NCBI RefSeq assembly: GCF_003544855.1
Contig: NZ_CP032101.1
Location: forward strand, 2,232,001 to 2,296,000
Source of the DNA: Malaciobacter marinus
Lineage (GTDB): Bacteria > Campylobacterota > Campylobacteria > Campylobacterales > Arcobacteraceae
DNA: 64,000 bases
Direction: 5' to 3'
The first letter of the stretch is position 1. Every line of letters begins with the position of its first letter. Below are positions 16,541 to 41,579 of the stretch, in pieces. The notes beneath the pieces were generated by a model. That model was not told the origin of the DNA and searched no databases. It was given only the letters and a program-made list of their open reading frames with translations. The position numbers were made by a program, and so were the translations under genes.

Positions 16541-16563
16541 GATAATTATTGATAATAATTATC
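16541..16563. promoter_or_regulatory. Fur-box-like sequence before the TonB receptor
   Basis: An imperfect inverted repeat built from GATAATTATT and GATAATAATTATC lies 29 bases upstream of the receptor ATG. The right part, TGATAATAATTATCA with its flanks (16550-16564), is a perfect 7-1-7 match. It could silence the receptor when iron is plentiful. Confidence 0.7.
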
Positions 16564-16591
16564 ACAATTCATATCATAAAGGTAACATAAA

Positions 16592-18724
16592 ATGAAAAAA
16601 AAATTAGTTTTGTCTTCAATTGTATCTATTTTATTATTACAAAATAGTATAAATGCAAATACAAAAATAGATAGCGTTACAGTAACAACAGCAACTAAAA
16701 CACAAAGAACAATTGATGGAGTAAGTGCTTCAATTCAAGTAATTACACAAAAAGATATTAAAAGGATAAATGCTGAATCATTAAAAGATATCATAAAAAA
16801 ATTATCAGGATTAACAATTCAGTATGGAACATTCCCTAGTGCTAGTTCAAAATCAAAATCTTCCATATCAATTAGAGGTATGAGTGCAAATGGTACTTTA
16901 TTTTTAATTGATGGAAGAAGAATGGCAGGAGAAGTAAAAAATCCTTATGACTTAGATAGAATTCCTGCAAGTTCAATACAAAGAATAGAGATAGTAAAAG
17001 GCCCAATGTCTACACTTTATGGAGCAGATGCTTTAGGTGGAGTAATTAATATTATTACAAAAAAACCTACAGAAGATGTTCAAGTTGATTTTTCAGTAAG
17101 ATATGGACAAAATAAAGATGGTGATGCAAAAAATAAAAATGCATCATTTTCATTAAGAGGTAAAAAAGATAAATTACTTTATTCAATATATGCAAATAGC
17201 ACAAACACTACACCATATACACAAAAAGAAAAAGCAAATGTACTAGTAAATCAAATAGGAGGACCTAATCATGGAAGTAAACAAAAACCATCAAACCTTA
17301 CACCAGGAACTCCTTCTTATGCATTAAGTGGTCTAAATGATATATATAATCATGATGTTACATATAAAGAAGATAGTCAAACTTATACCGTTGGTGGAAG
17401 ATTTGATTATTTAATTAGTGATAATTCAAAAGTTGGTTTAGATATTAATTACTTTGATGAAACAAGAGATGGTTCATACGTGGGATACTTTCACCCATCA
17501 AATATAAGTCCAGCACCTGGCAAAAAAATTCCAGTTTTTAATATTCCAGTTAATTCAAAAGATGAAAATGAAAGATTAGATTTAGGTTTTGATTTTGAAA
17601 CTAATATTAATGAAGATTTAATTTTAAAATTAAGAGCATATAGAAGTTATTATGAAAAAAGAAATACAACAACAGCAAAATATTTTAAACAAATGGGATA
17701 TGATAGTAAATCTCAATCAGCAAGTAATGGAATGAATGCAAATGTTGAAATTTTCACATATGAAGCTTTAATTAATTATATAGTAAATGATTCTCACTTA
17801 CTAACAGCAGGAGTTGAAAAAAGAGATGAAGAAAGAGAAGCTAGTGTATTTACAAATAGTACTGATATGAGTATAAAAAAAGTAGATTATAAAGCTATTT
17901 ATTTACAAGATGAATGGAAAATAAATGAAACTTTAAATGCGACACTTGGACTTAGATATGATAAAGTATCTAATGCAGAAAATAAAACAACATTTAAAGT
18001 AGGTCTTGTAAAAAATTTCTCTAAAGAATTAAATTTAAGAACTAACTTTGCACAAGGATATAGAACACCAGATATTAGAGAGATGTATATTAACAAACAA
18101 ACACCAAATGGTTTACAACAAGGTGCTGATGTAGCTGGATATGATTTAAAACCAGAGTTTACAAACTCTTATGAAATAGGAATTTTTGGAGAGTATAAAG
18201 ACTTAAGATATAGTAGTTCTATATTTTTAAATGATATTGATGATAGAATTTCACAAGTTTTAAAATCTAATGGTACTAGTAGCTATTATACTTTTGAAAA
18301 TGTTAGTAGTGCTCAAACAAAAGGATTTGAACTAGATTTAACATATGATATTTTAAGTAATTTAAGTACTACTTTAAGTTACACCGAACTTCAAACTAAG
18401 AATAAAGATACAAATAAAGATTTGGAATTTAACCCAAAGAGAACTATCAATTTAAGTTTTGAATATCTTCCTACAGATAATTTTGTTCTTATTTTAAGTA
18501 GTAGACACATAGGAAAACAATACTATCAAGAAAATATAAATAATACTAAAAAAGATAAATATACAAATAATTACACTCTTTTTGATTTAAGTGCAAACTA
18601 TAAAATTAACAAAAATAGTGAATTCTTTTTTGGAGTTGATAATATCTTCGATAAAGAAGTAAATGACGTAATTGGTTCAAATATTGGTACTTTTTTCTAC
18701 ACTGGTATGAAATTTATCTTCTAA
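16592..18724 (+). CDS. TonB-dependent outer-membrane receptor, CirA/FepA-like
   Basis: This 710-residue protein has a signal peptide (residues 1-22), a plug domain (about 35-165, with I-S-I-R-G-M, L-I-D-G-R-R and the hallmark A-D-A-L-G-G-V-I-N-I-I-T-K-K) and a C-terminal beta-barrel ending in Phe (K-F-I-F). The TonB box is probably around D-S-V-T-V-T. Such receptors bind ferric siderophores, colicins or heme. No heme-receptor F-R-A-P/N-P-N-L signature was seen, so a siderophore or another metal chelate is more likely. A Fur-like box stands just upstream, and the ABC importer before it may serve the same substrate. Confidence 0.9.
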   Translation: MKKKLVLSSIVSILLLQNSINANTKIDSVTVTTATKTQRTIDGVSASIQVITQKDIKRINAESLKDIIKKLSGLTIQYGTFPSASSKSKSSISIRGMSANGTLFLIDGRRMAGEVKNPYDLDRIPASSIQRIEIVKGPMSTLYGADALGGVINIITKKPTEDVQVDFSVRYGQNKDGDAKNKNASFSLRGKKDKLLYSIYANSTNTTPYTQKEKANVLVNQIGGPNHGSKQKPSNLTPGTPSYALSGLNDIYNHDVTYKEDSQTYTVGGRFDYLISDNSKVGLDINYFDETRDGSYVGYFHPSNISPAPGKKIPVFNIPVNSKDENERLDLGFDFETNINEDLILKLRAYRSYYEKRNTTTAKYFKQMGYDSKSQSASNGMNANVEIFTYEALINYIVNDSHLLTAGVEKRDEEREASVFTNSTDMSIKKVDYKAIYLQDEWKINETLNATLGLRYDKVSNAENKTTFKVGLVKNFSKELNLRTNFAQGYRTPDIREMYINKQTPNGLQQGADVAGYDLKPEFTNSYEIGIFGEYKDLRYSSSIFLNDIDDRISQVLKSNGTSSYYTFENVSSAQTKGFELDLTYDILSNLSTTLSYTELQTKNKDTNKDLEFNPKRTINLSFEYLPTDNFVLILSSRHIGKQYYQENINNTKKDKYTNNYTLFDLSANYKINKNSEFFFGVDNIFDKEVNDVIGSNIGTFFYTGMKFIF

Positions 18725-20399: not shown

Positions 20400-20414
20400 T
20401 GATAATAACTATCA
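20400..20414. promoter_or_regulatory. Fur box 1 before the DUF2325/flavodoxin operon
   Basis: TGATAATAACTATCA differs from the 7-1-7 pattern by one base. Confidence 0.65.
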
Positions 20415-20452
20415 ATATTAAACTAGATTTAAGATTTTCTCATGTATTATTT

Positions 20453-20467
20453 TAATAATGATTATCA
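20453..20467. promoter_or_regulatory. Fur box 2 before the DUF2325/flavodoxin operon
   Basis: TAATAATGATTATCA differs from the 7-1-7 pattern by one base and lies 53 bases from box 1 and 15 bases before the ATG of the 21-residue ORF. Two boxes suggest tight control. Confidence 0.65.
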
Positions 20468-20563: not shown

Positions 20564-20890
20564 ATGAGTGTATTAATTATAGGCGGAGATAAGATTTCAC
20601 ATATATCAAATATGTTAGAAGATTTAGGTGCTAAAACAATCAAACATTGGGATGCAAGAAAAAAATCATCTGCTCCTAAGAAAAAAGTTCCTCAAGACAC
20701 AGATTGTATCATAATGTTAACATCATTTTTAAATCACAATACAATGCTTAAGTATAAAAGTGAAGCAAAGAAAAAAAATATTCCTTTTATATGTGCAAAA
20801 AGAAGTGTAAATTGCGTATATGATGAGTATGTTAAAATCATGGGAATAAAAAATTGTGCTGATTGTTATGCAAATTGTGGATTTAAATAA
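20564..20890 (+). CDS. DUF2325 domain protein
   Basis: This 108-residue protein matches the DUF2325 pattern (V-L-I-I-G-G-D-K-I near the N-terminus, H-W-D-A-R, D-C-I-I-M-L-T-S-F-L-N-H near residue 48). It also has a Cys-rich end (N-C-A-D-C-Y-A-N-C). The function of the family is unknown. Its stop overlaps the next start (TAATG). The two Fur-like boxes and the flavodoxin in the same run tie it to iron limitation. Confidence 0.8.
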   Translation: MSVLIIGGDKISHISNMLEDLGAKTIKHWDARKKSSAPKKKVPQDTDCIIMLTSFLNHNTMLKYKSEAKKKNIPFICAKRSVNCVYDEYVKIMGIKNCADCYANCGFK

Positions 20891-21660
20891 TGAGCAATAC
20901 AAATAGATTTAGTTTTAATGAAAGCTTTTTAGGATTTATTGATAACTGTGAATTACTTCCAAAAGATTTTGACGAATTTACATCAACATTAAGACATAGG
21001 CAATTATTTTTAGCACTTTGTAATAATATGTTAGATACATCATGTAAATTCTCAAAATATGAACAAAAAAGATTAAGACAATTTTCTTTAAAAGAAGCTT
21101 TTCATCAAAAAATAAAATCTTTACTTCCAAATAAAATACCTTTTAATAAAAAACAAATTAAAAGATTTAATTTTTGTAAAGATTCAACTAAAATAATAAA
21201 CTCTTATAAAATAAAGAAATCAATCTTGATTGTCACATCAAATAAAAAAATATTAGATGTAGCAAAATTGATATCTTTGTGTTATGTAAATAATAAAATG
21301 CAGTTTATTTTAGATAAAAACTTACTTTTTCATGAATTTGTTTTACATAAAATAAAAAAATTACATAAAGACAAAACAGTAAAAGATCATGGAGACTCAA
21401 TTTCAATTACAGGTAAAGATGTAAATGCATTAAAGATTTATACTTCATGGAAAAACATACAAAAAAACAAACCTGATATAAAAGATGAACTAGAATATGC
21501 AATAAAAAGTATTAAAAAAGAAAACTATTCTCAAGTTTATTTAGTATATCCAAAAGCAAATGACTTTAAACGTCATATACCAGTTTATGTAGATGAGTTA
21601 AAAAATAAAGCGTATGTAATTAAAGCAATTCCATACTCGTTGAGATCAACAATTAGATAA
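20890..21660 (+). CDS. Unknown protein in the Fur-flanked flavodoxin operon
   Basis: This 256-residue, Lys-rich cytosolic protein has no signal peptide or membrane segment. Residues 1-110 are predicted helical (e.g. L-R-H-R-Q-L-F-L-A-L-C-N-N-M-L). Residues 110-256 look alpha/beta (I-L-I-V-T-S-N-K-K-I; Y-S-Q-V-Y-L-V-Y-P-K-A). I recognise no family. It overlaps DUF2325 by one base and precedes flavodoxin by 20 bases. The co-transcription suggests a partner of DUF2325 in iron-limited cells. Confidence 0.65.
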   Translation: MSNTNRFSFNESFLGFIDNCELLPKDFDEFTSTLRHRQLFLALCNNMLDTSCKFSKYEQKRLRQFSLKEAFHQKIKSLLPNKIPFNKKQIKRFNFCKDSTKIINSYKIKKSILIVTSNKKILDVAKLISLCYVNNKMQFILDKNLLFHEFVLHKIKKLHKDKTVKDHGDSISITGKDVNALKIYTSWKNIQKNKPDIKDELEYAIKSIKKENYSQVYLVYPKANDFKRHIPVYVDELKNKAYVIKAIPYSLRSTIR

Positions 21661-21680
21661 TATAAGGAGAATAACAAAAT

Positions 21681-22178
21681 ATGGCAACAGCACTATTTTT
21701 TGCAAGTAGCACAGGAAACACAGAAGAAGTAGCACAAAAAATCGCAGATAATTTAGGCAATATTGAAATGTTTAATATTTGTGATGAAGATATTCAAAAA
21801 ATAAATAAATTTGATAAAATTATTTTAGGTACATCTACGTGGGGTGAAGGAGAGTTACAAGATGACTGGGATGAGATATGGGAAGATTTTTGTGAACTTG
21901 ATTTAAGTGGTAAAACAGTAGCTTTATTTGGTCTTGGTGACCAAGATGGTTATGGTGATGAATTTTGTGATGCTTTAGGTATTATGTACGAACAAGTAAA
22001 AAAAGCAAATGCAAATATTATTGGTTTTACATCAACTCAAGATTATGATTTTGAATACTCAAAAGCTCAAATTGATGATGAGTTTGCAGGCTTAGTAATT
22101 GATGAAGATAATCAAGATGACCTAACAGATGAAAGAATCAAAACTTGGGTTGAAAAAATAAAAGCTGATATTTTATAA
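21681..22178 (+). CDS. Flavodoxin (iron-responsive copy)
   Basis: This 165-residue protein has the FMN phosphate loop (S-S-T-G-N-T-E-E-V) at residues 9-17, the isoalloxazine loop T-W-G-E-G-E-L-Q-D-D-W around residue 56 and the G-L-G-D-Q-D-G-Y segment near 92. It is a long-chain flavodoxin that can replace ferredoxin as electron carrier when iron is scarce, which fits its place at the end of a Fur-box-preceded operon. AAGGAG precedes the ATG. It is the first of three flavodoxin genes in the window. Confidence 0.93.
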   Translation: MATALFFASSTGNTEEVAQKIADNLGNIEMFNICDEDIQKINKFDKIILGTSTWGEGELQDDWDEIWEDFCELDLSGKTVALFGLGDQDGYGDEFCDALGIMYEQVKKANANIIGFTSTQDYDFEYSKAQIDDEFAGLVIDEDNQDDLTDERIKTWVEKIKADIL

Positions 22179-29794: not shown

Positions 29795-30304
29795 ATGACA
29801 TGTGCAATATTCTATGCAAGTAAAAGTGGATACGCAAAAGAGGTGGCAAATAAAATATCTTTTGCTTTAGATGAAATAAGAGTTTTTGATATAGGTGTTA
29901 CAGGAAGTGAGTATATTTCTGATTATAAGCACATAATTTTTGGAATACCAACTTGGGATCATGGTCAAATGCAAAAAGATTGGCAAAAAATATGGGATGA
30001 TTTTAAACATATAGATTTTAAAGGAAAAACTGTTGCAATTTTTGGTTTAGGAGATCAAAAAAAATATCCTGATGAATTTGCTGATGCAATGAGATATGTT
30101 TATGATGATTTGACTAAAAGTGGTGCAACTATTGTTGGCTTTACATCAACGCAAGGATATCAATTTAATCAATCAAAAGCAGTAGTCGATGATAAATTTG
30201 TAGGTTTAGTTATTGATGAACAAAATCAACCAGAATTAACAAATATAAGAATAAAAAATTGGACAGATGAGATAAAAGCAGATATTTTGCATGCTACATC
30301 TTAA
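29795..30304 (+). CDS. Divergent flavodoxin paralogue
   Basis: This 169-residue flavodoxin-like protein has an altered FMN phosphate loop, S-K-S-G-Y-A-K-E-V instead of S-S-T-G-N-T-E-E-V. Its isoalloxazine loop reads T-W-D-H-G-Q-M-Q-K-D-W instead of T-W-G-E-G-E-L-Q-D-D-W. The C-terminal core (V-V-D-D-K-F-V-G-L-V-I-D-E) is well kept. It has its own AAGGAG ribosome binding site and sits between the ttr regulator (divergent) and a canonical flavodoxin. It may bind FMN differently, have a shifted potential or serve a dedicated partner. Confidence 0.88.
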   Translation: MTCAIFYASKSGYAKEVANKISFALDEIRVFDIGVTGSEYISDYKHIIFGIPTWDHGQMQKDWQKIWDDFKHIDFKGKTVAIFGLGDQKKYPDEFADAMRYVYDDLTKSGATIVGFTSTQGYQFNQSKAVVDDKFVGLVIDEQNQPELTNIRIKNWTDEIKADILHATS

Positions 30305-30946: not shown

Positions 30947-31399
30947 TTATTTTTCTTCTTGACAATCTTTACAAGTTCCATATAGTTGCATTGAGTGGCT
31001 TGTAATTTTAAATTTATTTTTCTTTGCAATTCTATCTTGTCTTTTTTCTATTTCATCATCTAAAAACTCTACAATTTTGCCACATGAAGTACAAATCAAA
31101 TGGTCATGGTGAGATTTTGCGTTACTTTCGTATTTTTTACCTTCTGTTCCAAAAGCAATAGATGTTATTAGATTCACTTCTTCTAAAAATCCCAAAGCTC
31201 TATATACTGTAGCGATACCAATATTTGAATCTGAATATTTAGTTTTGATTTGATTATAAACATCTTCAGCACTTAAATGGTCTTCTGCATTAATAAGAAT
31301 ATCTAAAACAATCTCTCTTTGTTCAGTATATTTCAAACCTTTTTGTTTTACTATTCTTTTAAGCTCTTCTATTACTTCTTCATTATTATTGTTTGTCAT
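30947..31399 (-). CDS. fur: Ferric uptake regulator Fur
   Basis: This 150-residue protein has the N-terminal winged helix (G-L-K-Y-T-E-Q-R-E-I; G-I-A-T-V-Y-R-A-L) and metal sites H-H-D-H-L-I-C-T-S-C with a C-terminal C-K-D-C. Its sequence recalls C. jejuni Fur along its whole length (Q-G-L-K-Y-T, S-I-A-F-G-T-E-G-K-K-Y-E). It is the likely repressor acting on the TGATAAT-type boxes in this window. A second paralogue lies at 40448. Confidence 0.92.
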   Translation of the reverse strand: MTNNNNEEVIEELKRIVKQKGLKYTEQREIVLDILINAEDHLSAEDVYNQIKTKYSDSNIGIATVYRALGFLEEVNLITSIAFGTEGKKYESNAKSHHDHLICTSCGKIVEFLDDEIEKRQDRIAKKNKFKITSHSMQLYGTCKDCQEEK

Positions 31400-31483: not shown

Positions 31484-31693
31484 TTATTTTTCTTTCAGTT
31501 TTTTCTTTTTTTTATCTGGTTGGTAAAGTAGATGGTGCCATAAAGCAAATCCACAAAAGGCTGCTCCTGCAACAATATGGGTCTTTTTTGCAACTTTATT
31601 TTTCATAAACATAGAAGTTACAACAGTTGCCCCAAGAGTCGCAGTCATTCCAATTTTAGCAACTTCTTTTTTTACTTCTTGATCAAATTCCAT
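31484..31693 (-). CDS. Small membrane protein of the iron island
   Basis: This 69-residue protein has two hydrophobic stretches (about 12-30 and 38-55) rich in Gly, Ala and Thr, a W-H-H-L-L segment and a very basic tail (K-K-K-K-K-L-K-E-K). Its ATG lies inside the end of the preceding 42-residue ORF (10-base overlap) with AAAGGA before it. It is in a short operon behind a perfect Fur box, downstream of the P1B-ATPase operon. It may be a membrane component of the same iron system. No family recognised. Confidence 0.6.
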   Translation of the reverse strand: MEFDQEVKKEVAKIGMTATLGATVVTSMFMKNKVAKKTHIVAGAAFCGFALWHHLLYQPDKKKKKLKEK

Positions 31694-31811
31694 TTCCTTT
31701 TTTCCTTCTTTGTCGTCTTTGTCTTCTTTGGATTGTTTTTTTTGTTCCTTTTAAAGTCTCGTATGTTAACGCTACTGTTAAAGCAGTAGCCAAAGGTAAA
31801 ATGAAAGGCAT
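31683..31811 (-). CDS. 42-residue membrane peptide with Arg-rich tail
   Basis: A short ORF with AAGGAG seven bases before its ATG encodes a peptide with a hydrophobic N-terminal half (P-F-I-L-P-L-A-T-A-L-T-V-A-L) and an extremely basic C-terminal half (Q-R-R-Q-R-R-Q-R-R-K-K). A perfect Fur box lies 12 bases upstream, and it overlaps the next gene. It could be an inner-membrane peptide whose tail binds acidic lipid, nucleic acid or a partner. No family recognised. Confidence 0.55.
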   Translation of the reverse strand: MPFILPLATALTVALTYETLKGTKKTIQRRQRRQRRKKGNGI

Positions 31812-31823
31812 AATTTCTCCTTA

Positions 31824-31838
31824 TGATAATAATTATCA
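31824..31838. promoter_or_regulatory. Perfect Fur box before the two small membrane proteins
   Basis: TGATAATAATTATCA is an exact 7-1-7 match to TGATAAT-N-ATTATCA. Confidence 0.8.
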
Positions 31839-31869
31839 ATATTTTACCTATTTTCCCTTTAAATAAAAC

Positions 31870-31884
31870 TGATATTAATTATCA
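31870..31884. promoter_or_regulatory. Second Fur-box-like sequence
   Basis: TGATATTAATTATCA has one mismatch to the 7-1-7 pattern and lies 46 bases from the perfect box, just after the end of the P1B ATPase gene. Confidence 0.6.
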
Positions 31885-31894
31885 TAATAAATAT

Positions 31895-34009
31895 TTACCT
31901 TTTTACTTTTACCCCACGTATTGAATTTAAAAGTAAACCTATTGTAGTACCATTATGTAATACTGCTGTAACTATAGGAGAAAATGCACCAATAGTTGCT
32001 CCTGCTAAAATTCCTGAGTTTATTCCAACTGTTGCTTTAAAATTGGTATTAATTAAACTCATAGTTTTATTTGCCAACTCTTTTGCTTCAACTACTGCAT
32101 CAATATCATCTTTTAATAAGCTAACATCAGCAGTCGCTTTTGCAATATCTGCACCTTTACTCATAGAAATACCTACATTTGCAGAGATTAATGCAGGTGC
32201 ATCATTTATACCATCACCTACAAAAGCAACATTTCTTCCTTGCTCTTTCATCTTCTTAACAATTGAAGCTTTATCAGTTGGTAAAAGTTCTGAATAAACC
32301 TCATCAATGCCTAATTCTTTTGCAACTTGTTGTGCTTTTTTATCAACATCACCTGTTAACATTACCATATGCTTTACGCCCAATTTTCTCAACTTTTCAA
32401 TTGATTGTTTTGAGTTATCTCTTATTTTATCACTTAAAGCAATTGTTCCTAAAAGTTTATTATCAAAACCAACATAAAGTAAAGTTTTTCCTTCATCTAA
32501 ACTTTTGTTTATTCTATCTTGATATTTAGAAAAATCTATTTTTTCATCATCTTCTAAAAAATGTCTACTACCAATAACAACATTTTTCTCATCAACTTCT
32601 GTTTTTACTCCATGGGCAACTATAAACTCAACTTCTTCATGGTGCATATGAACAAACCCTCTTTGTTTAGCTGCTTTTACAACTGCTTCTGCAACTGGAT
32701 GAAAATAGTGTTCTTCCGTACTTGCAGTAAGATTAAGTAACTCTTCTTCTGTCCACTCTTCATCATAAGGATCAACTTCTATTACTTCTAAATCGCCTTG
32801 AGTTAAAGTTCCTGTTTTATCAAAAATAAAAGTATCAACATTTGATAAGGCTTCAATAGATTTAGCACCTTTAATCATAATTCCTTCATGCCCAGCTTTA
32901 GAAATAGTTGATTTAAAAGCAACCGGAGTAGCAAGTTTTAAAGCACAAGAGTAATCAGCTTGTAAAATTGAAGCTACTCTTTCAAAATCTTTAGTAACTA
33001 CATATGATAAACCAGCTAATCCTAAAGTAACAGGAACTAATTTATCTGCTAATCTTGTAGCTTTTAGTTGAATTGATGACTTTTCATTTAATGAACTTTC
33101 AATATAGTGTTTTATTCTTTGTGTTGCTGTATTAGCTCCAACATGCTCAGCCCATATTTTAAGTCTACCCTCTTCTAAAACTGTTCCAGATATAACTCTA
33201 TCACCTCTTGCTTTTTTCACAGGCTCAGCTTCACCTGTCATAGAAACTTGGTTTACACTTGCATCACCATTAACAATATGTCCATCAACAGGTACCGTAC
33301 TTCCTGCTGAAACAATAACTATATCGCCAATTTGTATATCTTCTGTTTTAACTAATACTTCAACTTTTTTACCATCTTTAACTTTTTCAATCCAAGCTTC
33401 TTTTACATTTGGCTTTGCAAGCTCTTTTAATAAATCATCACTTTTATGAACTGTTGTTTCTTCTATATATTCACCAAGCTCTAACATTGCATTTGTTGAA
33501 TTAGCAGCTAAATAATCTCTTCTAAATACAGAAATACCAACAGCAGCACTTTCTAATACTTTTGAAGTTAATCCAAGTTCAAAAAACTCTTTTGTTCCCT
33601 CAATAAGCATAGGTGTAGCAGCAGCAGTAGTAACAGTTGCTTTAGTAAAATTGCTTTTAATAAATCTTTCTGCAACTAAGGCAGAACTAGCTCTTAATAC
33701 ACCATTTAAGCTTGGTTTTTCATCACTAATACAATTTACACAAACTGCATTGTTTTCACAATTAGTTGATAGTAAATCATCCAGTGTAAGTTCTTGCAAT
33801 GTTTTTTCTATAACATTAGCAACACTTTTACTTATACTAAAAATTACACTTGTAGCCTTTTTATTTACACGAACACTTTCAACTCCATCAATATTTTTTA
33901 AATATGAAGTTAAGATATTCTCATCAATATACTCTTCTTTTAATAAAGAGTATTTATATCTTAATCTAGTTGGTGTTTCATGTACTTTTACAAAACTATT
34001 ATTACTCAT
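31895..34009 (-). CDS. P1B-type metal ATPase with noncanonical SCA motif, FezB-like candidate
   Basis: This 704-residue P-type ATPase has the TGE loop (258-260), D-K-T-G-T at 397-401 and the G-D-G-I-N-D-A-P hinge. The metal-site helix reads Y-S-C-A-L-K-L-A-T-P (353-362), without the Pro of the CPC/CPH/SPC motifs. The N-terminal 75 residues look like a ferredoxin-fold, HMA-like domain with T-R-L-R-Y-K-Y but no C-x-x-C; a Cys group (84, 90, 93) follows. Non-CPx P1B ATPases of this kind (P1B-6) include FezB, which loads iron into ferrosomes. With a ferritin-like protein, small membrane proteins and feoAB nearby, iron is the likeliest cargo. Export or detoxification of another metal is the alternative. 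Confidence 0.82.
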   Translation of the reverse strand: MSNNSFVKVHETPTRLRYKYSLLKEEYIDENILTSYLKNIDGVESVRVNKKATSVIFSISKSVANVIEKTLQELTLDDLLSTNCENNAVCVNCISDEKPSLNGVLRASSALVAERFIKSNFTKATVTTAAATPMLIEGTKEFFELGLTSKVLESAAVGISVFRRDYLAANSTNAMLELGEYIEETTVHKSDDLLKELAKPNVKEAWIEKVKDGKKVEVLVKTEDIQIGDIVIVSAGSTVPVDGHIVNGDASVNQVSMTGEAEPVKKARGDRVISGTVLEEGRLKIWAEHVGANTATQRIKHYIESSLNEKSSIQLKATRLADKLVPVTLGLAGLSYVVTKDFERVASILQADYSCALKLATPVAFKSTISKAGHEGIMIKGAKSIEALSNVDTFIFDKTGTLTQGDLEVIEVDPYDEEWTEEELLNLTASTEEHYFHPVAEAVVKAAKQRGFVHMHHEEVEFIVAHGVKTEVDEKNVVIGSRHFLEDDEKIDFSKYQDRINKSLDEGKTLLYVGFDNKLLGTIALSDKIRDNSKQSIEKLRKLGVKHMVMLTGDVDKKAQQVAKELGIDEVYSELLPTDKASIVKKMKEQGRNVAFVGDGINDAPALISANVGISMSKGADIAKATADVSLLKDDIDAVVEAKELANKTMSLINTNFKATVGINSGILAGATIGAFSPIVTAVLHNGTTIGLLLNSIRGVKVKR

Positions 34010-34018
34010 ATATTATCT

Positions 34019-34360
34019 TTATTCTTGATTTGTTTCCATAGCAGCTTTAGCATCTTCCATTCTCTCTTTCATCTCTTCCATTCCAGCTTGAAAAAGTTCA
34101 CTTCCTTTTGATACTGCTTTCATTATATTTTCTTGTGCATCTTTATTTGTTAGAAGATAAGTTACAGCTGCACCAATTAATGCACCTTTTACAAAATCAC
34201 CGCTATTAAATCCTGTATTAATTCCTTGGTTTTGTACTGGAATATTAGGATTTATGTATGGATTTTGATTTAGGTTTACTCCTTGTTGGTTTGTTCTACT
34301 ATTTTCAATATTCATATCATACATATTTTGATTGTTCATTTGATTATTCATATTATTCAT
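34019..34360 (-). CDS. Asn-rich small membrane protein with YtxH-like core
   Basis: This 113-residue protein starts with an Asn/Met/Gln-rich, low-complexity segment of about 50 residues (M-N-N-M-N-N-Q-M-N-N-Q-N-M). Then come one membrane helix with small residues (V-K-G-A-L-I-G-A-A-V-T-Y-L-L, about 58-72) and a charged amphipathic helix (about 80-110). The core resembles YtxH/DUF5132-type proteins. It overlaps the upstream gene by eight bases and ends nine bases before the ATPase start, so it is probably co-expressed with it. It may be an ATPase partner or scaffold. Confidence 0.65.
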   Translation of the reverse strand: MNNMNNQMNNQNMYDMNIENSRTNQQGVNLNQNPYINPNIPVQNQGINTGFNSGDFVKGALIGAAVTYLLTNKDAQENIMKAVSKGSELFQAGMEEMKERMEDAKAAMETNQE

Positions 34361-34730
34361 TGATTCCCTCTTCTAAAAAATTTTCATCACAACTACTATT
34401 TTCAAGCTGTTCATATTTGTTATTTAATTTATCATCAATAACTTCAACAGCATAAATTCCAGCCATACCAACACTAAAAGCTGTTAATGCTTTTAAAAAT
34501 CCACCTTGTTGACCAATATGATTTGCAGTTGCTATTGCTGTTCCTGTTGCTATTGCACCTTGAGCTGTCTTTTTTACAGTATCTTGAATAGCTTCATTTG
34601 AAGATAATTTCTTCTCTTTTGCTTTTTTGTAGTTAATAGTTCCAGATACAACTGCACTTGCAACTGCACCACTTACAATATGACCCATAATATTTCTTGG
34701 TTCACCTGTATTAATTAAGCCATTTTGCAT
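34353..34730 (-). CDS. Gly/Ala-rich two-helix membrane protein
   Basis: This 125-residue protein has Gly/Ala-rich hydrophobic stretches at about 15-32 (I-V-S-G-A-V-A-S-A-V-V-S-G) and 57-105 (A-Q-G-A-I-A-T-G-T-A-I-A-T-A; A-F-S-V-G-M-A-G-I-Y-A-V). The tail is acidic (S-C-D-E-N-F-L-E-E-G). Glycine-zipper helices like these occur in proteins that pack densely in membranes, including magnetosome and ferrosome proteins; no specific homology is claimed. Its start overlaps the upstream gene by one base. Confidence 0.65.
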   Translation of the reverse strand: MQNGLINTGEPRNIMGHIVSGAVASAVVSGTINYKKAKEKKLSSNEAIQDTVKKTAQGAIATGTAIATANHIGQQGGFLKALTAFSVGMAGIYAVEVIDDKLNNKYEQLENSSCDENFLEEGINE

Positions 34731-34996
34731 TATTCATTTTCCTTTTTTTCTATTTTTTCAACTTGAGCTTCTTCTAATTTCTTTGCTTCTTTTTTCTCTT
34801 TAATACACTCTTTAGTAGCCTCAATTGTACTTTTTACTTCATCTGCTGTTTCTTTACCTTGTTCAATTGTTGAATTTGTAAACTCTTTAGATTTTCCAAG
34901 TAACTCTTTTGTTTTAGTTTTTAACTTATCACTATTTTTATAAGCAAAAACTGCCCCTGCTCCAATTGCTAATCCAGCTATAAATGGTAATGCCAT
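34730..34996 (-). CDS. YtxH/DUF5132-like membrane-anchored helical protein
   Basis: This 88-residue protein has an N-terminal Gly-rich membrane helix (L-P-F-I-A-G-L-A-I-G-A-G-A-V-F-A-Y) followed by a long charged helix of about 65 residues rich in Lys and Glu. Similar single-helix proteins accompany P1B ATPases elsewhere (for example the PacL-type partners of mycobacterial CtpC), so an ATPase-scaffolding role is plausible. It lies between the ferritin-like gene (3-base gap) and the Gly-rich membrane protein. AAGGAG precedes the start. Confidence 0.65.
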   Translation of the reverse strand: MALPFIAGLAIGAGAVFAYKNSDKLKTKTKELLGKSKEFTNSTIEQGKETADEVKSTIEATKECIKEKKEAKKLEEAQVEKIEKKENE

Positions 34997-34999
34997 AAT

Positions 35000-35671
35000 T
35001 TACTCCTTGTTTTCTTGATAATTATTTATAAATGCAACTAATGCTGCTCCTAAACCTGCTCCACTTACCATTGAAATATTTAATTTAGAAAATAATTCAG
35101 TTAGTTTGTTTTGATCCATATTACCAGAAGCTATATCTTCTAAAAGCATTTGATATTCACTTGCTTTTGACATCATATCTTCCACACTATTTAAACTACT
35201 ACTTTGATTTATGCCATTGTAGTGATTTAAAACACATTTTCTAAAAGCAGGAAGATGATTGTTATATGATGCTGCTTGTAGTTTATAAAGTGTATCTTTT
35301 ATATCACTTTGTGTTGTATGTAAAATTAAATGATCATACATTGCAACATTATTTATTTCACTTGCAACTCCTAACTCACAACACTCAATATAAGTTTTTG
35401 GAACTTGCACTTTTAATGCCCAGTCATTAACTGGTACTTCTACATTATATTTTTGTAAAAGAGGCATCAATGCACTATAGTGAACTGCTTCTGCTTCTTT
35501 TATATTTACAAAAGGGTGTATTGCACCAAATTTTTCAATAATTTTACTATACGTTTCATATGCTTTAAACTCATCATATACAGCAATTCTTAAAACTTGT
35601 GCTTCAATAGATTGTTCACTATTTACATCAACTTTTTGGGATATTAAAATATCCTCATCATAATTTACCAC
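35000..35671 (-). CDS. DUF2202-like ferritin-like diiron protein
   Basis: This 223-residue protein has a four-helix pattern with apparent diiron ligands: an early Glu in Y-D-E-F-K-A-Y-E-T-Y, E-A-E-A-V-H-Y-S-A-L, a Glu in E-I-N-N-V-A-M-Y-D-H and a His in N-N-H-L-P-A-F. This is the layout of DUF2202 in the ferritin-like superfamily. No signal peptide was seen. The GTG start has a near-perfect ribosome binding site (GGAGGTGAT) and overlaps the upstream gene by one base. It could oxidise Fe(II) or handle iron for the membrane system. The C-terminal Gly-rich segment (V-S-G-A-G-L-G-A-A-L-V-A-F) may touch the membrane. Confidence 0.8.
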   Translation of the reverse strand: MVNYDEDILISQKVDVNSEQSIEAQVLRIAVYDEFKAYETYSKIIEKFGAIHPFVNIKEAEAVHYSALMPLLQKYNVEVPVNDWALKVQVPKTYIECCELGVASEINNVAMYDHLILHTTQSDIKDTLYKLQAASYNNHLPAFRKCVLNHYNGINQSSSLNSVEDMMSKASEYQMLLEDIASGNMDQNKLTELFSKLNISMVSGAGLGAALVAFINNYQENKE

Positions 35672-35991
35672 TACATCACCTCCTTTGCAAGATTGTTTAT
35701 TATTTTTGTAATTTCATCTAAATTTCTTTTATTTATCAAGTCTTCCCAAACCTCAGGTTTAAAAATATTTGCATCATATGTGATTGTAACAGAAGCAATA
35801 ACTTTATTTACTTTTATATTTTTAATTCCTTTAATCTTATTTGGAATTTGCTCAATATCTTCTATTGATATGTTACTATTTTCATTTTTGATTTTTGGGT
35901 TTACTCTTACTCTTAATCTTCCAGGAGAGTGAGCAACAATAGTAAAATAACTTGCTATTTTTATAATATCTTCAGTTTTTATCAAAATCAT
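35671..35991 (-). CDS. HMA-like domain protein with GRLRVR motif
   Basis: This 106-residue protein has the motif A-H-S-P-G-R-L-R-V-R-V (20-30) followed by a ferredoxin-like alpha/beta pattern with I-K-N-I-K-V-N and S-V-T-I-T-Y-D. It resembles the N-terminal domain of the P1B ATPase in this operon and the cysteine-free HMA-like domains that accompany non-CPx ATPases. It is the first gene of the operon. The ATG at 35991 lies only one base after AAAGG; a TTG two codons later is better spaced and may be the real start. It is probably a cytosolic regulator or partner of the ATPase. Confidence 0.7.
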   Translation of the reverse strand: MILIKTEDIIKIASYFTIVAHSPGRLRVRVNPKIKNENSNISIEDIEQIPNKIKGIKNIKVNKVIASVTITYDANIFKPEVWEDLINKRNLDEITKIINNLAKEVM

Positions 35992-38093: not shown

Positions 38094-38333
38094 ATGAAAT
38101 TAAGTGAATTAAGCAAAGGTGATATAGCAACAATTAAAAATATAAATTGTGATAGTGCTTTAAAAAATAGATTTTACTCTTTTGGAATAATAAAAGGTTC
38201 AAAAATAACTATTGAAGAAGTAACTATGGCAAAAAGTACTATTGAAATAAAAATAAATAATACTAAAGTTGCAATAAGATTAATAGAAGCAGAAAAAATT
38301 GAGGTCGAGAATGAACACAAACAAAATAATTAA
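38094..38333 (+). CDS. feoA: FeoA ferrous iron transport accessory protein
   Basis: This 79-residue cytosolic SH3-like protein has the FeoA pattern (M-K-L-S-E-L-S-K-G-D near the start; F-Y-S-F-G-I-I-K-G-S; I-E-I-K-I-N-N-T-K-V-A-I-R). It overlaps feoB by 23 bases. FeoA supports Fe(II) uptake by FeoB. Confidence 0.92.
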   Translation: MKLSELSKGDIATIKNINCDSALKNRFYSFGIIKGSKITIEEVTMAKSTIEIKINNTKVAIRLIEAEKIEVENEHKQNN

Positions 38334-40419
38334 AGTTGCATTAGTTGGACAACCAAATGTTGGTAAGAGTATGCTTATCAACTCAATTTCAAATGCAAGA
38401 TTAAAAGTTGGTAATTTTTCAGGAGTAACAGTTGCAAAAGAGCAAGTAATTTTAAAATATAAAGATTATACAATTGAAATAGTTGATTTACCAGGCTCAT
38501 ACTCTTTAAATGAATATACGCAAGAAGAAAAAGTTACAAAAAACTTCTTAAATAATAGTGAATATGACATTATATTAAATGTTACTGATTCAACAAATTT
38601 AGAAAGAAACTTATACTTAACATCAGAACTATTAGCATTAGATAAAAAAATGATAATCGCTTTAAATATGAATGATGAAGCAATAAAAGAAGATATATTT
38701 ATTGATGAAGTACAATTAAGTAAAATCCTTGGAAAACCTTGTATAAAAACAAGTGCTACAACAAAACAAGGTATAGATAAACTAATCAAAGAAATAGTAA
38801 AAAAACATGAAAGTGAAAAACTATCTACAAAATTAATTTTCTCAAATGTTATAGAAGAAGAGATTGCAAATATTATTGGCTTTTTCAATGATAGTGGATT
38901 TAAATGTAAAAATAGTTTTAGACAAATAGCTATAAAACTTCTAAAAGAAGACAAAGAGACTTATAAATTTTTTCATGATGAACCAATATGGACAAAACTA
39001 CAACCTATTTTAAATAGTGCATTTGAACATATCGCTCTTCATTATGATACAAAAAATGTAGAAGATATTTTCAATGAAGAAAAATTCTCTTTTGCAAAAG
39101 GTGCTGTTACTGAAACTGTTACAGTAAAAACTCATGTGGAAAAAACATTAACAGAGAAAATAGACTCAGTTTTAATCCATAAAGTATTTGGTTTACCTAT
39201 TTTCTTATTTTTAATGTGGGGATTATTTCAATTGACTTTTGAAGTAGGAAATATTCCTATGGATATCATAGATGCATTTTTTGCAAATCTAATTGACAAT
39301 ACAAAAGAAGTATTAGGAGATAATCAATTATCCTCAATAATTGCAGATGGTGCAATTGCAGGTGTTGGTGCTGTTGTTTTATTTATTCCAAATATTGTAA
39401 TATTATTTTTTGGTATTGCATTACTTGAAACAACAGGATACATGAGTAGAGTTGCTTTCTTACTTGATGGTTTCTTCCACAAATTTGGACTTCATGGAAA
39501 ATCATTTATTCCTTTAGTAACTGGTTTTGGTTGTTCAGTTCCAGCTTATATGGCAGCAAGAACCCTTAAAAATGAAAGAGATAGATTACTTACACTATTT
39601 ATTATAGGATTTATGTCTTGTGGAGCAAGACTTCCTATTTATGTACTTTTTACAGGTGCATTTTTTAGTGAAAGCAATGCTGGTAATGTTCTATTTTTAA
39701 TATATATTGGTGGAGCAATATTAGGATTAATTGCAGCAAAAGTTTTAAAAATATTAGTATTTAAAAGTGAAGATGAACCTTTTGTAATGGAGATGCCAAA
39801 ATACAGATTACCATCATTTAAACTAATCTGGCATACAGTTTCAAACCAAGCTATGATGTATCTTAAAAAAGCAGGTACATTTATTCTTGCAGCATCACTT
39901 CTAATTTGGGTTGCTAGTAATTATCCAAAACATTTAGATGTAGAAGAGACTTACAATCAAAAAATTGAATTAGCTTTAAGTGATGAAGAAAAACTAGCTT
40001 TAGAAAATGAACTTGCTTTATATAATCTTGAGAACTCTTATTTAGGTTATGTTGGGAAATTTTCAGAACCATTATTTGCTCCTTTAGGATTTGATTGGAA
40101 AATGTCAGTAGCACTTGAGACTGGACTTGCAGCAAAAGAGATTGTAGTTTCAACTTTAGGTATTTTATATGGTTTAGGTGAAGAAAATGATGAAAACTCA
40201 AAAGGTTTAGTTGAAAAAATAAGAGCAAATATTCCATTTGCATCAGGTATTGCATTTATTGTATTTGTAATGATTTATTTACCTTGCCTTGCAGCAACAA
40301 TGGTTTTTGCAAGAGAAGCTGGTGGATGGAAATATTTAGTATATTTATTTGTATTTACAACAGGTACTGCTTGGGTGTTATCATTTATTACTTATAATGT
40401 AATATTACTATTAACTTAA
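38311..40419 (+). CDS. feoB: FeoB ferrous iron transporter
   Basis: This 702-residue protein has an N-terminal G-domain (G-Q-P-N-V-G-K-S, D-L-P-G-S-Y-S-L, N-M-N-D) and a C-terminal membrane part. The latter has the Gate segments (G-F-G-C-S-V-P-A-Y-M and F-M-S-C-G-A-R-L-P-I-Y) whose cysteines are conserved. The ATG at 38311 has GAGG ten bases upstream; an in-frame TTG twelve bases earlier has no better site. It is the main Fe(II) importer and likely supplies the iron handled by the adjacent storage candidate. Confidence 0.95.
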   Translation: MNTNKIIKVALVGQPNVGKSMLINSISNARLKVGNFSGVTVAKEQVILKYKDYTIEIVDLPGSYSLNEYTQEEKVTKNFLNNSEYDIILNVTDSTNLERNLYLTSELLALDKKMIIALNMNDEAIKEDIFIDEVQLSKILGKPCIKTSATTKQGIDKLIKEIVKKHESEKLSTKLIFSNVIEEEIANIIGFFNDSGFKCKNSFRQIAIKLLKEDKETYKFFHDEPIWTKLQPILNSAFEHIALHYDTKNVEDIFNEEKFSFAKGAVTETVTVKTHVEKTLTEKIDSVLIHKVFGLPIFLFLMWGLFQLTFEVGNIPMDIIDAFFANLIDNTKEVLGDNQLSSIIADGAIAGVGAVVLFIPNIVILFFGIALLETTGYMSRVAFLLDGFFHKFGLHGKSFIPLVTGFGCSVPAYMAARTLKNERDRLLTLFIIGFMSCGARLPIYVLFTGAFFSESNAGNVLFLIYIGGAILGLIAAKVLKILVFKSEDEPFVMEMPKYRLPSFKLIWHTVSNQAMMYLKKAGTFILAASLLIWVASNYPKHLDVEETYNQKIELALSDEEKLALENELALYNLENSYLGYVGKFSEPLFAPLGFDWKMSVALETGLAAKEIVVSTLGILYGLGEENDENSKGLVEKIRANIPFASGIAFIVFVMIYLPCLAATMVFAREAGGWKYLVYLFVFTTGTAWVLSFITYNVILLLT

Positions 40420-40420
40420 G

Positions 40421-40450
40421 TAAAAGCATAAGAGAAATCTTATGCTTTTA
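40421..40450. terminator. Bidirectional terminator between feoB and the second fur gene
   Basis: TAAAAGCATAAGA (40421-40433) pairs perfectly with TCTTATGCTTTTA (40438-40450) around a GAAA tetraloop. A- and T-runs on the two sides suit both convergent genes. Confidence 0.88.
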
Positions 40451-40894
40451 TTGACACTTCTCACATACTCCATAGATTGTCATAATATGATCATTTAAAT
40501 AAAAGTTGTTATCTTTTGCAACTTTTATTTGTTGTTTTTCTATTACCTCATCATTAAATTCTAAAATTTTATTACATGAAGTACAAATCATATGATCATG
40601 ATGTAAAGATAGATTTAACTCATACCTTTTAGCTCCATCACCAATATCCAATGAGTTAACTATGTTCAGTTCTTCAAAAAACTTAACAGTTCTATAAACT
40701 GTAGCTATCCCCATATCTACTTTATATTCACTTTTTGCAATATTTGCAATTTGTTCTGCACTTAAATGTTCATCATTAAAATACAAAATCTTTAAAATAT
40801 AATCCTTTTGTATTGAGTTTTTAAAGCCCAATTTTGAAACTGTATTTTTAAAGTTTTCTAAAAAAGATTCGAAACTTTCTTCATATTTTTGCAC
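40448..40894 (-). CDS. Second Fur-family regulator
   Basis: This 148-residue Fur-family protein has a winged helix (G-I-A-T-V-Y-R-T-V) and metal-site motifs H-H-D-H-M-I-C-T-S-C and C-E-K-C. It is Fur-like, not PerR-like, but its DNA-recognition region differs from the first Fur (N-S-I-Q-K-D-Y-I-L instead of Y-T-E-Q-R-E-I-V-L). It starts with GTG overlapping the stop of a 43-residue membrane ORF by one base, and converges on feoAB. A Fur-like box in front of the operon suggests auto- or cross-regulation. It may serve as a second iron-level sensor; Zur is the alternative. Confidence 0.82.
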   Translation of the reverse strand: MQKYEESFESFLENFKNTVSKLGFKNSIQKDYILKILYFNDEHLSAEQIANIAKSEYKVDMGIATVYRTVKFFEELNIVNSLDIGDGAKRYELNLSLHHDHMICTSCNKILEFNDEVIEKQQIKVAKDNNFYLNDHIMTIYGVCEKCQ

Positions 40895-41090: not shown

Positions 41091-41105
41091 TGATAATAAT
41101 TATCG
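41091..41105. promoter_or_regulatory. Fur box between the divergent second-fur operon and the 41163 gene
   Basis: TGATAATAATTATCG matches the 7-1-7 pattern with one mismatch and lies 66 and 58 bases from the two divergent starts. A weaker copy (TAATAATTAGTATCA) is at about 41036-41050. Confidence 0.7.
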
Positions 41106-41162: not shown

Positions 41163-41579
41163 ATGTTTAATATTAGTTTAGCCCTAGTAGGTCAAGTAGC
41201 TAGAACAGCAGCATTTGGGGCCATTGCAACTAAAGTAGTTGATACATTTATTCTTTCAAAAGTAAACAATAAAATCGATCAAAAAAGATGGATAAGACAA
41301 GCAAAGCTTGAAGCATTTGCAAAACTATCACAAGAGATACTATCTATTGATTTAAAAAACTTAAAAGATGAAAATATAAGAAATATAAAAGAGTATAGTG
41401 CAAAAACAATTCTTCTTTTAGAAGATAGAATTCTAATAAAAAGAATTGAAGATTATTTAAATAACTTAATAAATCTAGATAAAACTGCCCATGATAGTAG
41501 TAAAAACATGGTATGTATAGTAGATAAAAAAGGAATAGATTTAGTTATGTGTTTAAATAAAAATTTGAAAAAAGTATAA
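41163..41579 (+). CDS. Unknown membrane-associated protein behind a Fur box
   Basis: This 138-residue protein has an Ala-rich hydrophobic N-terminal segment (about 8-31: G-Q-V-A-R-T-A-A-F-G-A-I-A-T-K-V-V-D), then a Lys/Glu-rich, mostly helical body with no known motif. AAGGAG precedes the ATG. The N-terminal segment recalls the small Gly/Ala-rich proteins of the nearby P1B-ATPase operon in composition, not in clear alignment. It is monocistronic, with a Fur box upstream and a hairpin downstream. A component of the iron system is a reasonable guess only. Confidence 0.6.
   Translation: MFNISLALVGQVARTAAFGAIATKVVDTFILSKVNNKIDQKRWIRQAKLEAFAKLSQEILSIDLKNLKDENIRNIKEYSAKTILLLEDRILIKRIEDYLNNLINLDKTAHDSSKNMVCIVDKKGIDLVMCLNKNLKKV

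Follow-up and report, generated by a model that had tools for sequence, protein, structure and literature searches.

A candidate ferrosome gene cluster with a linked ferritin-like protein and a MamC-like protein in Malaciobacter marinus

Organization of the locus

Ferrosomes are membrane-bound iron-storage compartments of bacteria. We analysed a stretch of 64,000 nucleotides of the Malaciobacter marinus genome (NZ_CP032101.1, positions 2,232,001 to 2,296,000; the window), in which six genes on the minus strand (31895–35991) form what is probably a ferrosome (fez) gene cluster. They follow one another in a nearly gapless run and encode an HMA_2 protein, a DUF2202 ferritin-like protein, proteins of 88 and 125 amino acids (aa), an Asn-rich protein and a P1B-type ATPase. 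Downstream of the ATPase gene, two Fur boxes precede a second small unit with the genes for a 42-aa peptide and a 69-aa protein (Table 1). All genes listed in the initial annotation of this DNA were found where it had placed them, close-packed on the minus strand. These include an HMA-like protein with a GRLRVR motif, which matches PF19991 above the cut-off; three small membrane proteins, the last of them Asn-rich; and two small open reading frames (ORFs) behind a perfect Fur box. The feoAB genes and the two fur genes that it had described close by are present as well.

Orthologues of the ATPase occur in 20 of 41 relatives with 47–100% identity and in the same gene order. The initial annotation had made a conserved neighbourhood one of its checks; the order is indeed kept across Campylobacterota and, in part, in Pseudomonadota.

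Table 1. Features of the fez-type locus and its surroundings (positions in the window)
Feature	Position	Strand	Evidence
HMA_2 (GRLRVR) protein, 106 aa	35671-35991	minus	PF19991, 36.6 bits, above cut-off
DUF2202 ferritin-like protein, 223 aa	35000-35671	minus	PF09968, 23.3 bits (cut-off 22)
FezA-like small protein, 88 aa	34730-34996	minus	Campylobacterota-only profile reaches RS-1 FezA, E = 2.9e-3
MamC-like two-helix membrane protein, 125 aa	34353-34730	minus	NF038051, E = 1.7e-6, 28.3 bits
Asn-rich FezA/YtxH-like protein, 113 aa	34019-34360	minus	Campylobacterota-only profile reaches RS-1 FezA, E = 2.2e-4
FezB, P1B-type ATPase of the SCA clade, 704 aa	31895-34009	minus	tree and TM4 motif
Fur-box-like site, 1 mismatch, TGATATTAATTATCA (plus-strand sequence)	31870-31884	none	
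Perfect 7-1-7 Fur box, TGATAATNATTATCA	31824-31838	none	
42-aa peptide, single membrane segment, MPFILPLATALT... and basic tail	31683-31811	minus	
FezC-type (DUF4405-like) small membrane protein, 69 aa	31484-31693	minus	profile reaches RS-1 FezC, E = 2.9e-6
feoA	38094-38333		
feoB	38299-40419		
Fur-family genes (two)	30947-31399 and 40448-40894		by sequence
Flavodoxin-type genes	at 29795 and 30407		

The P1B-type ATPase

In a tree of 37 P1B ATPases, the window ATPase and FezB of strain RS-1 (ferrosomes were defined in this bacterium) fall into one clade with support of 100/99 (bootstrap/Shimodaira–Hasegawa-like approximate likelihood ratio test, SH-aLRT). A 94-row P1B tree also groups the two (SH-aLRT 98, with 48 rows). 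The FezB clade splits into a Desulfovibrio–Clostridia–Methanobrevibacter branch and a Pseudomonadota–Campylobacterota branch, the latter containing the window ATPase; three further P1B ATPases of the source genome, all with a CPC motif, are placed outside the clade. The initial annotation had described an ATPase without the CPx proline, and transmembrane helix 4 (TM4) indeed reads ADYSCALKLATP, with no CPC, SPC or TPC motif. Clustering with copper, zinc or cobalt exporters, which the same annotation had named as an outcome that would speak against its proposal, was not what the trees gave. Rows of the FezB clade have D(Y/F)(S/A/C)C at TM4 (VDFSCAIKLSAP in RS-1), the motif of the clade being D(Y/F)SCA(L/I)KL with small variations. 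The window ATPase also carries an N-terminal HMA_2-like domain and is 71% identical to the FezB of an Arcobacter plasmid. Judged from tree and motif, it is a FezB, of the P1B-6/FezB group.

As the RS-1 reference we used genome G189 (Desulfovibrionaceae), which carries plasmid pDMC2 of Solidesulfovibrio magneticus RS-1 with 100% identity over 6000 bp and is therefore strain RS-1. Its fez-like locus encodes proteins of 86, 743 (the ATPase) and 146 aa, read as FezA-FezB-FezC. We take this locus to be the published fez operon, from its genome position and from the fit of the last protein to FezC. That protein consists of an HMA_2-like half and a DUF4405-like half, in keeping with the DUF4405-like FezC of D. 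magneticus (PMC10979944).

A scan of contigs with generic P-type ATPase motifs provided a sample of matches and is no survey. The sister clade of FezB (loci L132 (= G045), L095, L080 and L069) consists of unassigned P1B-like ATPases with TM4 motifs such as ADYGTGIR and LDFMTGIR, without Cys.

FezA- and FezC-related proteins

Profiles of the small proteins were built from Campylobacterota alone and run against 2620 ORFs of non-Campylobacterota clusters. Those of the 88-aa protein, which has a Gly/Ala-rich membrane segment at its N-terminus and a charged tail, and of the Asn-rich protein both reach RS-1 FezA (Table 1), weak indications that these two small Gly-rich proteins beside fezB are FezA relatives. 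The Asn-rich profile also finds fez proteins of Hahella, Vibrio, Rhodomicrobium, Rhodobacter and Azospirillum at E values from 4e-19 to 2e-13. The Asn-rich protein had initially been counted among the marks of a distinct version of the system, a claim that we drop in view of these FezA/YtxH-like relatives in other fez clusters.

The profile of the 69-aa family aligns with the C-terminal half of RS-1 FezC, and the HMA_2 profile, weakly (0.013), with its N-terminal half; FezC thus corresponds to two separate proteins here. The HMA_2 profile further matches HMA_2 proteins of the Vibrio cluster (1.6e-14) and the Azospirillum cluster (1.3e-13), and the window HMA_2 protein appears to be the counterpart both of the N-terminal half of RS-1 FezC and of the HMA_2 proteins of Azospirillum and Cereibacter. 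In the 69-aa protein, His39 and His53 are invariant in all 22 relatives, including RS-1. DUF4405 is matched by 18 of the 22 members of the family at E values up to 0.1, the window protein itself scoring under the Pfam cut-off (16.3 vs 26.7 bits). A small heme-b cytochrome is the probable identity of the 69-aa protein, given that heme b is bound by the FezC of Desulfurispirillum indicum (PMC10979944). The two small membrane proteins first annotated behind the Fur box are thus present, with the correction that their unit holds a FezC-type cytochrome candidate.

Peptides related to the 42-aa peptide (MPF-LPLAT) are found in seq­uences from 7 relatives, compared by hand, and in the Arcobacter plasmid cluster (L021) such a peptide is fused in frame to FezC. 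A 42-aa peptide family returned by iterated search was discarded as an artefact, the search having drifted into FezC, probably via the fused plasmid ORF. Between fezB and the 69-aa gene, loci L028-L044 have a conserved short peptide of the form MPF-LPLAT-LT-ALT...RRKKR, which is assigned to no family.

The DUF2202 ferritin-like protein

We found FezB in 136 of 397 Campylobacterota genomes. A DUF2202-type protein is encoded in 124 Campylobacterota genomes, all of them FezB-positive, its gene lying 806–2019 bp away from fezB (median distance 986 bp); the 261 FezB-negative genomes are without it. The DUF2202 protein is strictly linked to FezB and has become part of the Campylobacterota cluster; the ferritin-like protein had been proposed as the mark of a distinct version, which this linkage (124/124) bears out. 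A further such protein is encoded in a single gammaproteobacterial cluster (L048); the FezB of this cluster groups within those of Campylobacterota, which suggests transfer.

The assignment as a ferritin-like protein, initially made from the sequence alone, is borne out by PF09968 and by the fold. MJ0754 of Methanocaldococcus jannaschii (PDB 3q4n, 3q4r) is matched at 1.8e-7 by sequence profile (3q4n) and is the top fold match (5e-5) of a predicted model with a mean predicted local distance difference test (pLDDT) score of 71, rising to ~85–95 over most core helices. Both proteins share the fold and the E..H / E / S.N-H pattern; as far as the match extends, MJ0754 is without the C-terminal fez-type membrane segment of the window protein (about residues 165–222). 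The last 45–60 residues of the DUF2202 protein resemble the C-termini of Pro/Gly/His-rich proteins whose genes are placed comparably, in Cereibacter at 3.6e-4 and in Rhodobacter at 0.11, the latter not significant; this is suggestive of one membrane anchor that is combined with different N-terminal domains in different lineages.

If ferrosomes form, the DUF2202 and MamC-like proteins might nevertheless be structural scaffolds without metal chemistry of their own. The canonical fourth-helix Glu of the ExxH pair is absent from the DUF2202 family, position 136 being Tyr, Phe or Asn, and apparently also from MJ0754. In one member (L040, of Campylobacterota family f10) several putative ligand positions are lost, so that metal chemistry may not be universal. 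Yet five of the six ligand positions are kept, with the putative ligands E34, E61, H64, E105 and H139 present in 17–19 of 19 members, and we consider a purely structural role rather unlikely. Family f10 (e.g. G033, G692, G771) comprises many small genomes, mostly of ~1.6–2.2 Mb, with fezB and a more diverged DUF2202-type protein.

The MamC-like protein

MamC shapes the magnets of magnetic bacteria. In alphaproteobacterial magnetosomes it has two membrane helices around a charged loop, an arrangement shared by the 125-aa protein. The latter matches the NCBIfam MamC model NF038051, and because its 28.3 bits lie under the equivalog cut-off of 100, we call it MamC-like only. Among 25 relatives at fez loci of Campylobacterota and Pseudomonadota, 21 match the same model (best 8.8e-9).

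The resemblance could reflect convergence of Gly/Ala-rich two-helix membrane proteins with no homology between them. A score so far under the cut-off would fit this, as would the tendency of short hydrophobic proteins to yield false profile matches; background to NF038051 begins near 0.002, with proteins of ~1030 aa that are probably resistance-nodulation-division (RND) pumps. However, when 41 whole genomes were searched, the 13 best matches all lay at fez loci (1e-7 to 4e-5), and among 385 alphaproteobacterial genomes, in none of which a MamC above the cut-off was found, the best match was the Rhodomicrobium fez locus. Moreover, hhalign aligned the 125-aa family with a MamC sequence over 91 columns, through the polar loop, with 29% identity (probability 95.5, E 1.4e-8). 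The MamC sequence used, presumably a correct one, was validated solely by its score of 146.7 bits to NF038051. On these grounds convergence is unlikely, and common descent of the 125-aa protein and MamC is the likely explanation.

A shared role of the two proteins is possible. Glu66 and Asp70 of MamC have been linked to magnetite binding (PMC6584501), and E46 and D50 of the window protein align with a loop Glu and Asp of MamC that, by their spacing, are apparently these residues. This acidic pair is only partly kept (E or D at position 46 in 13/25; D at position 50 in 13/25, N in 7/25), as would be expected of a scaffold. The structure of the MamC loop did not come up in a search against the PDB, and the predicted model of the MamC-like protein is of low confidence (mean pLDDT 65). 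Unlike the gene of magnetosome MamC, the 125-aa gene lies in a fez context; mam genes were not searched for.

Comparison with other fez clusters

FezA, FezB and FezC of RS-1 all have relatives in the window cluster, with the same class of TM4 motif and the same two FezC histidines. The clusters differ in that FezC, a single protein in RS-1, is split in the window into the HMA_2 protein and the 69-aa cytochrome domain, and in the extra DUF2202, MamC-like and second FezA-like proteins of the window. Fez clusters of Pseudomonadota (Azospirillum L022, Cereibacter L024, Vibrio L023, Rhodomicrobium L047, Rhodobacter capsulatus L056 and Hahella L046) encode HMA_2, MamC-like, YtxH/FezA-like and FezB proteins in comparable order, their FezB belonging to the same subclade as that of the window. 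In contrast to the window cluster, they are without a ferritin-like domain; several encode a protein rich in Pro, Gly and His whose C-terminal segment is similar. The fezAB-type clusters of Clostridia (as in C. difficile) and Methanobrevibacter share with the window the FezB clade and a FezA-like protein; they mostly consist of two genes, and no MamC-like or DUF2202 protein was found in the loci compared. R. palustris CGA009 has six fez genes, RPA2333-2338 (PMC12016538).

A fez cluster of the same order is also carried by the 133-kb Arcobacter sp. plasmid p133_LEO_107 (CP134847.1, L021), beside TonB receptors and a Tn3 transposase. In the annotation of this plasmid, fezB is broken into two ORFs of 100 and 570 aa, whereas the match to the sister plasmid CP129951.1 is continuous.

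Fur boxes and neighbouring genes

The window contains 39 Fur sites with at most 3 mismatches, compared with 25.1 expected (standard deviation 4.7), a number reached in 0 of 100 shuffles. Upstream of FezC, a Fur box with 0–2 mismatches is present in most Campylobacterota clusters for which FezC is listed, and absent in L039, L040 and L041; in several relatives a second box lies 45–46 bp from the first. Several relatives also have a weak Fur site ~71–82 bp upstream of the first gene of the cluster. In C. difficile, fez is repressed by Fur (PMC12574912).

With feoAB, two fur-family genes and flavodoxin-type genes around it, the cluster lies in an iron neighbourhood. Elsewhere in the window, a perfect Fur box (16550-16564) stands just upstream of a TonB-dependent receptor gene (16592-18724; PF00593, PF07715), which itself follows an NnrS gene; this is another iron-uptake unit of the same regulon. 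Two near-perfect Fur boxes (20400-20467) precede an unassigned 256-aa ORF and, after it, a flavodoxin gene (together at 20890-22178). The window thus has several flavodoxin-like genes, those at 29795 and 30407 among them. Near the second fur gene, a one-mismatch Fur box (41091-41105) lies upstream of a 138-aa ORF (41163-41579) with a Gly/Ala-rich start, MFNISLALVGQVARTAAFGAIATKVVDTF...

Discussion

The initial annotation had read the locus as ferrosome-like, and the placement of the ATPase in the clade of RS-1 FezB, the relatives of FezA and FezC and the conserved gene order argue for that reading. We put the probability that this is a ferrosome gene cluster at roughly 0.8. The assignment rests on gene content, homology to the Fez proteins of RS-1, phylogeny, gene order, the DUF2202 linkage and the Fur boxes; from these we infer organelle formation, iron as the substrate and the role of each protein.

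A ferrosome system of this composition might work as follows. When iron runs out, Fur would leave its boxes and the cluster would be expressed. On the return of iron, FezB would take ferrous iron out of the cytoplasm and pump it into vesicles that the small Gly-rich FezA-like proteins help to form; handover or gating of the metal would fall to the HMA_2 protein and to the N-terminal domain of FezB. The 42-aa/69-aa pair would form a small two-histidine heme-b cytochrome, equivalent to the cytochrome half of FezC, and would move electrons across the organelle membrane, so that iron is oxidised for storage or reduced for release. Held at the membrane by its C-terminal segment, the DUF2202 protein may contribute a metal site of the ferritin type for the oxidation or loading of iron there, and the MamC-like protein may expose its loop helix as the place where the iron mineral nucleates.

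Several points weigh against this interpretation. Neither granules nor an iron phenotype have been reported for any Campylobacterota in the literature covered. The source genome encodes two Ferritin-family proteins above cut-off, and with these ordinary ferritins it would not strictly depend on a further iron store. No Fur site within 3 mismatches is found at the first gene (HMA_2) of the window cluster, which leaves the regulation of the first unit unproved. The FezA homology is weak, owing to short sequences of low complexity, the six-gene operons of R. palustris and S. putrefaciens lie outside the loci compared, and for the metal specificity of the SCA motif only the family serves as a guide.

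Many P1B ATPases are exporters, and FezB is a P1B ATPase by sequence. The ATPase might accordingly export excess Fe(II) to the periplasm as a means of detoxification, with the small proteins as accessories and no organelle, the ordinary ferritins of the genome serving storage. However, with Fur boxes at the downstream unit one would expect expression when iron is scarce, the opposite of what efflux calls for, and ferrosomes are made by relatives that have FezA and FezC partners; efflux is improbable. General P1B models do match the ATPase strongly (TIGR01525, 505 bits; TIGR01512, above cut-off), but export of another metal (Cu, Zn or Co) by the cluster is very improbable: the TM4 motif of the ATPase and its clade apart from all CPx ATPases contradict a Cu/Zn/Co exporter, and the Fur boxes and feo neighbours also speak against it.

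As a ferrosome cluster, the locus belongs to a known system of apparently new composition, the strict linkage of a ferritin-like protein and the relation to MamC being the main new points. In the open literature covered, which did not include the main ferrosome papers (Grant 2022, Pi 2023), we found no ferrosome paper for Campylobacterota and no mention of a fez DUF2202 protein or of a likeness to MamC. More tentatively, and at somewhat less than even odds, MamC may derive from, or share an ancestor with, a ferrosome protein, as a shared mineral-templating protein, and the Campylobacterota ferrosome may carry a membrane-anchored ferritin-like loading enzyme, which would join ferritin and organelle storage.

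About a third of the sampled Campylobacterota genomes seem to carry ferrosome genes, and the strict tie of these to a ferritin-like protein suggests an organelle with in-built chemistry for oxidising or loading iron. The relation to MamC would be a sequence link between ferrosomes and magnetosomes, through which the origin of magnetosome parts from an older iron organelle becomes directly testable.

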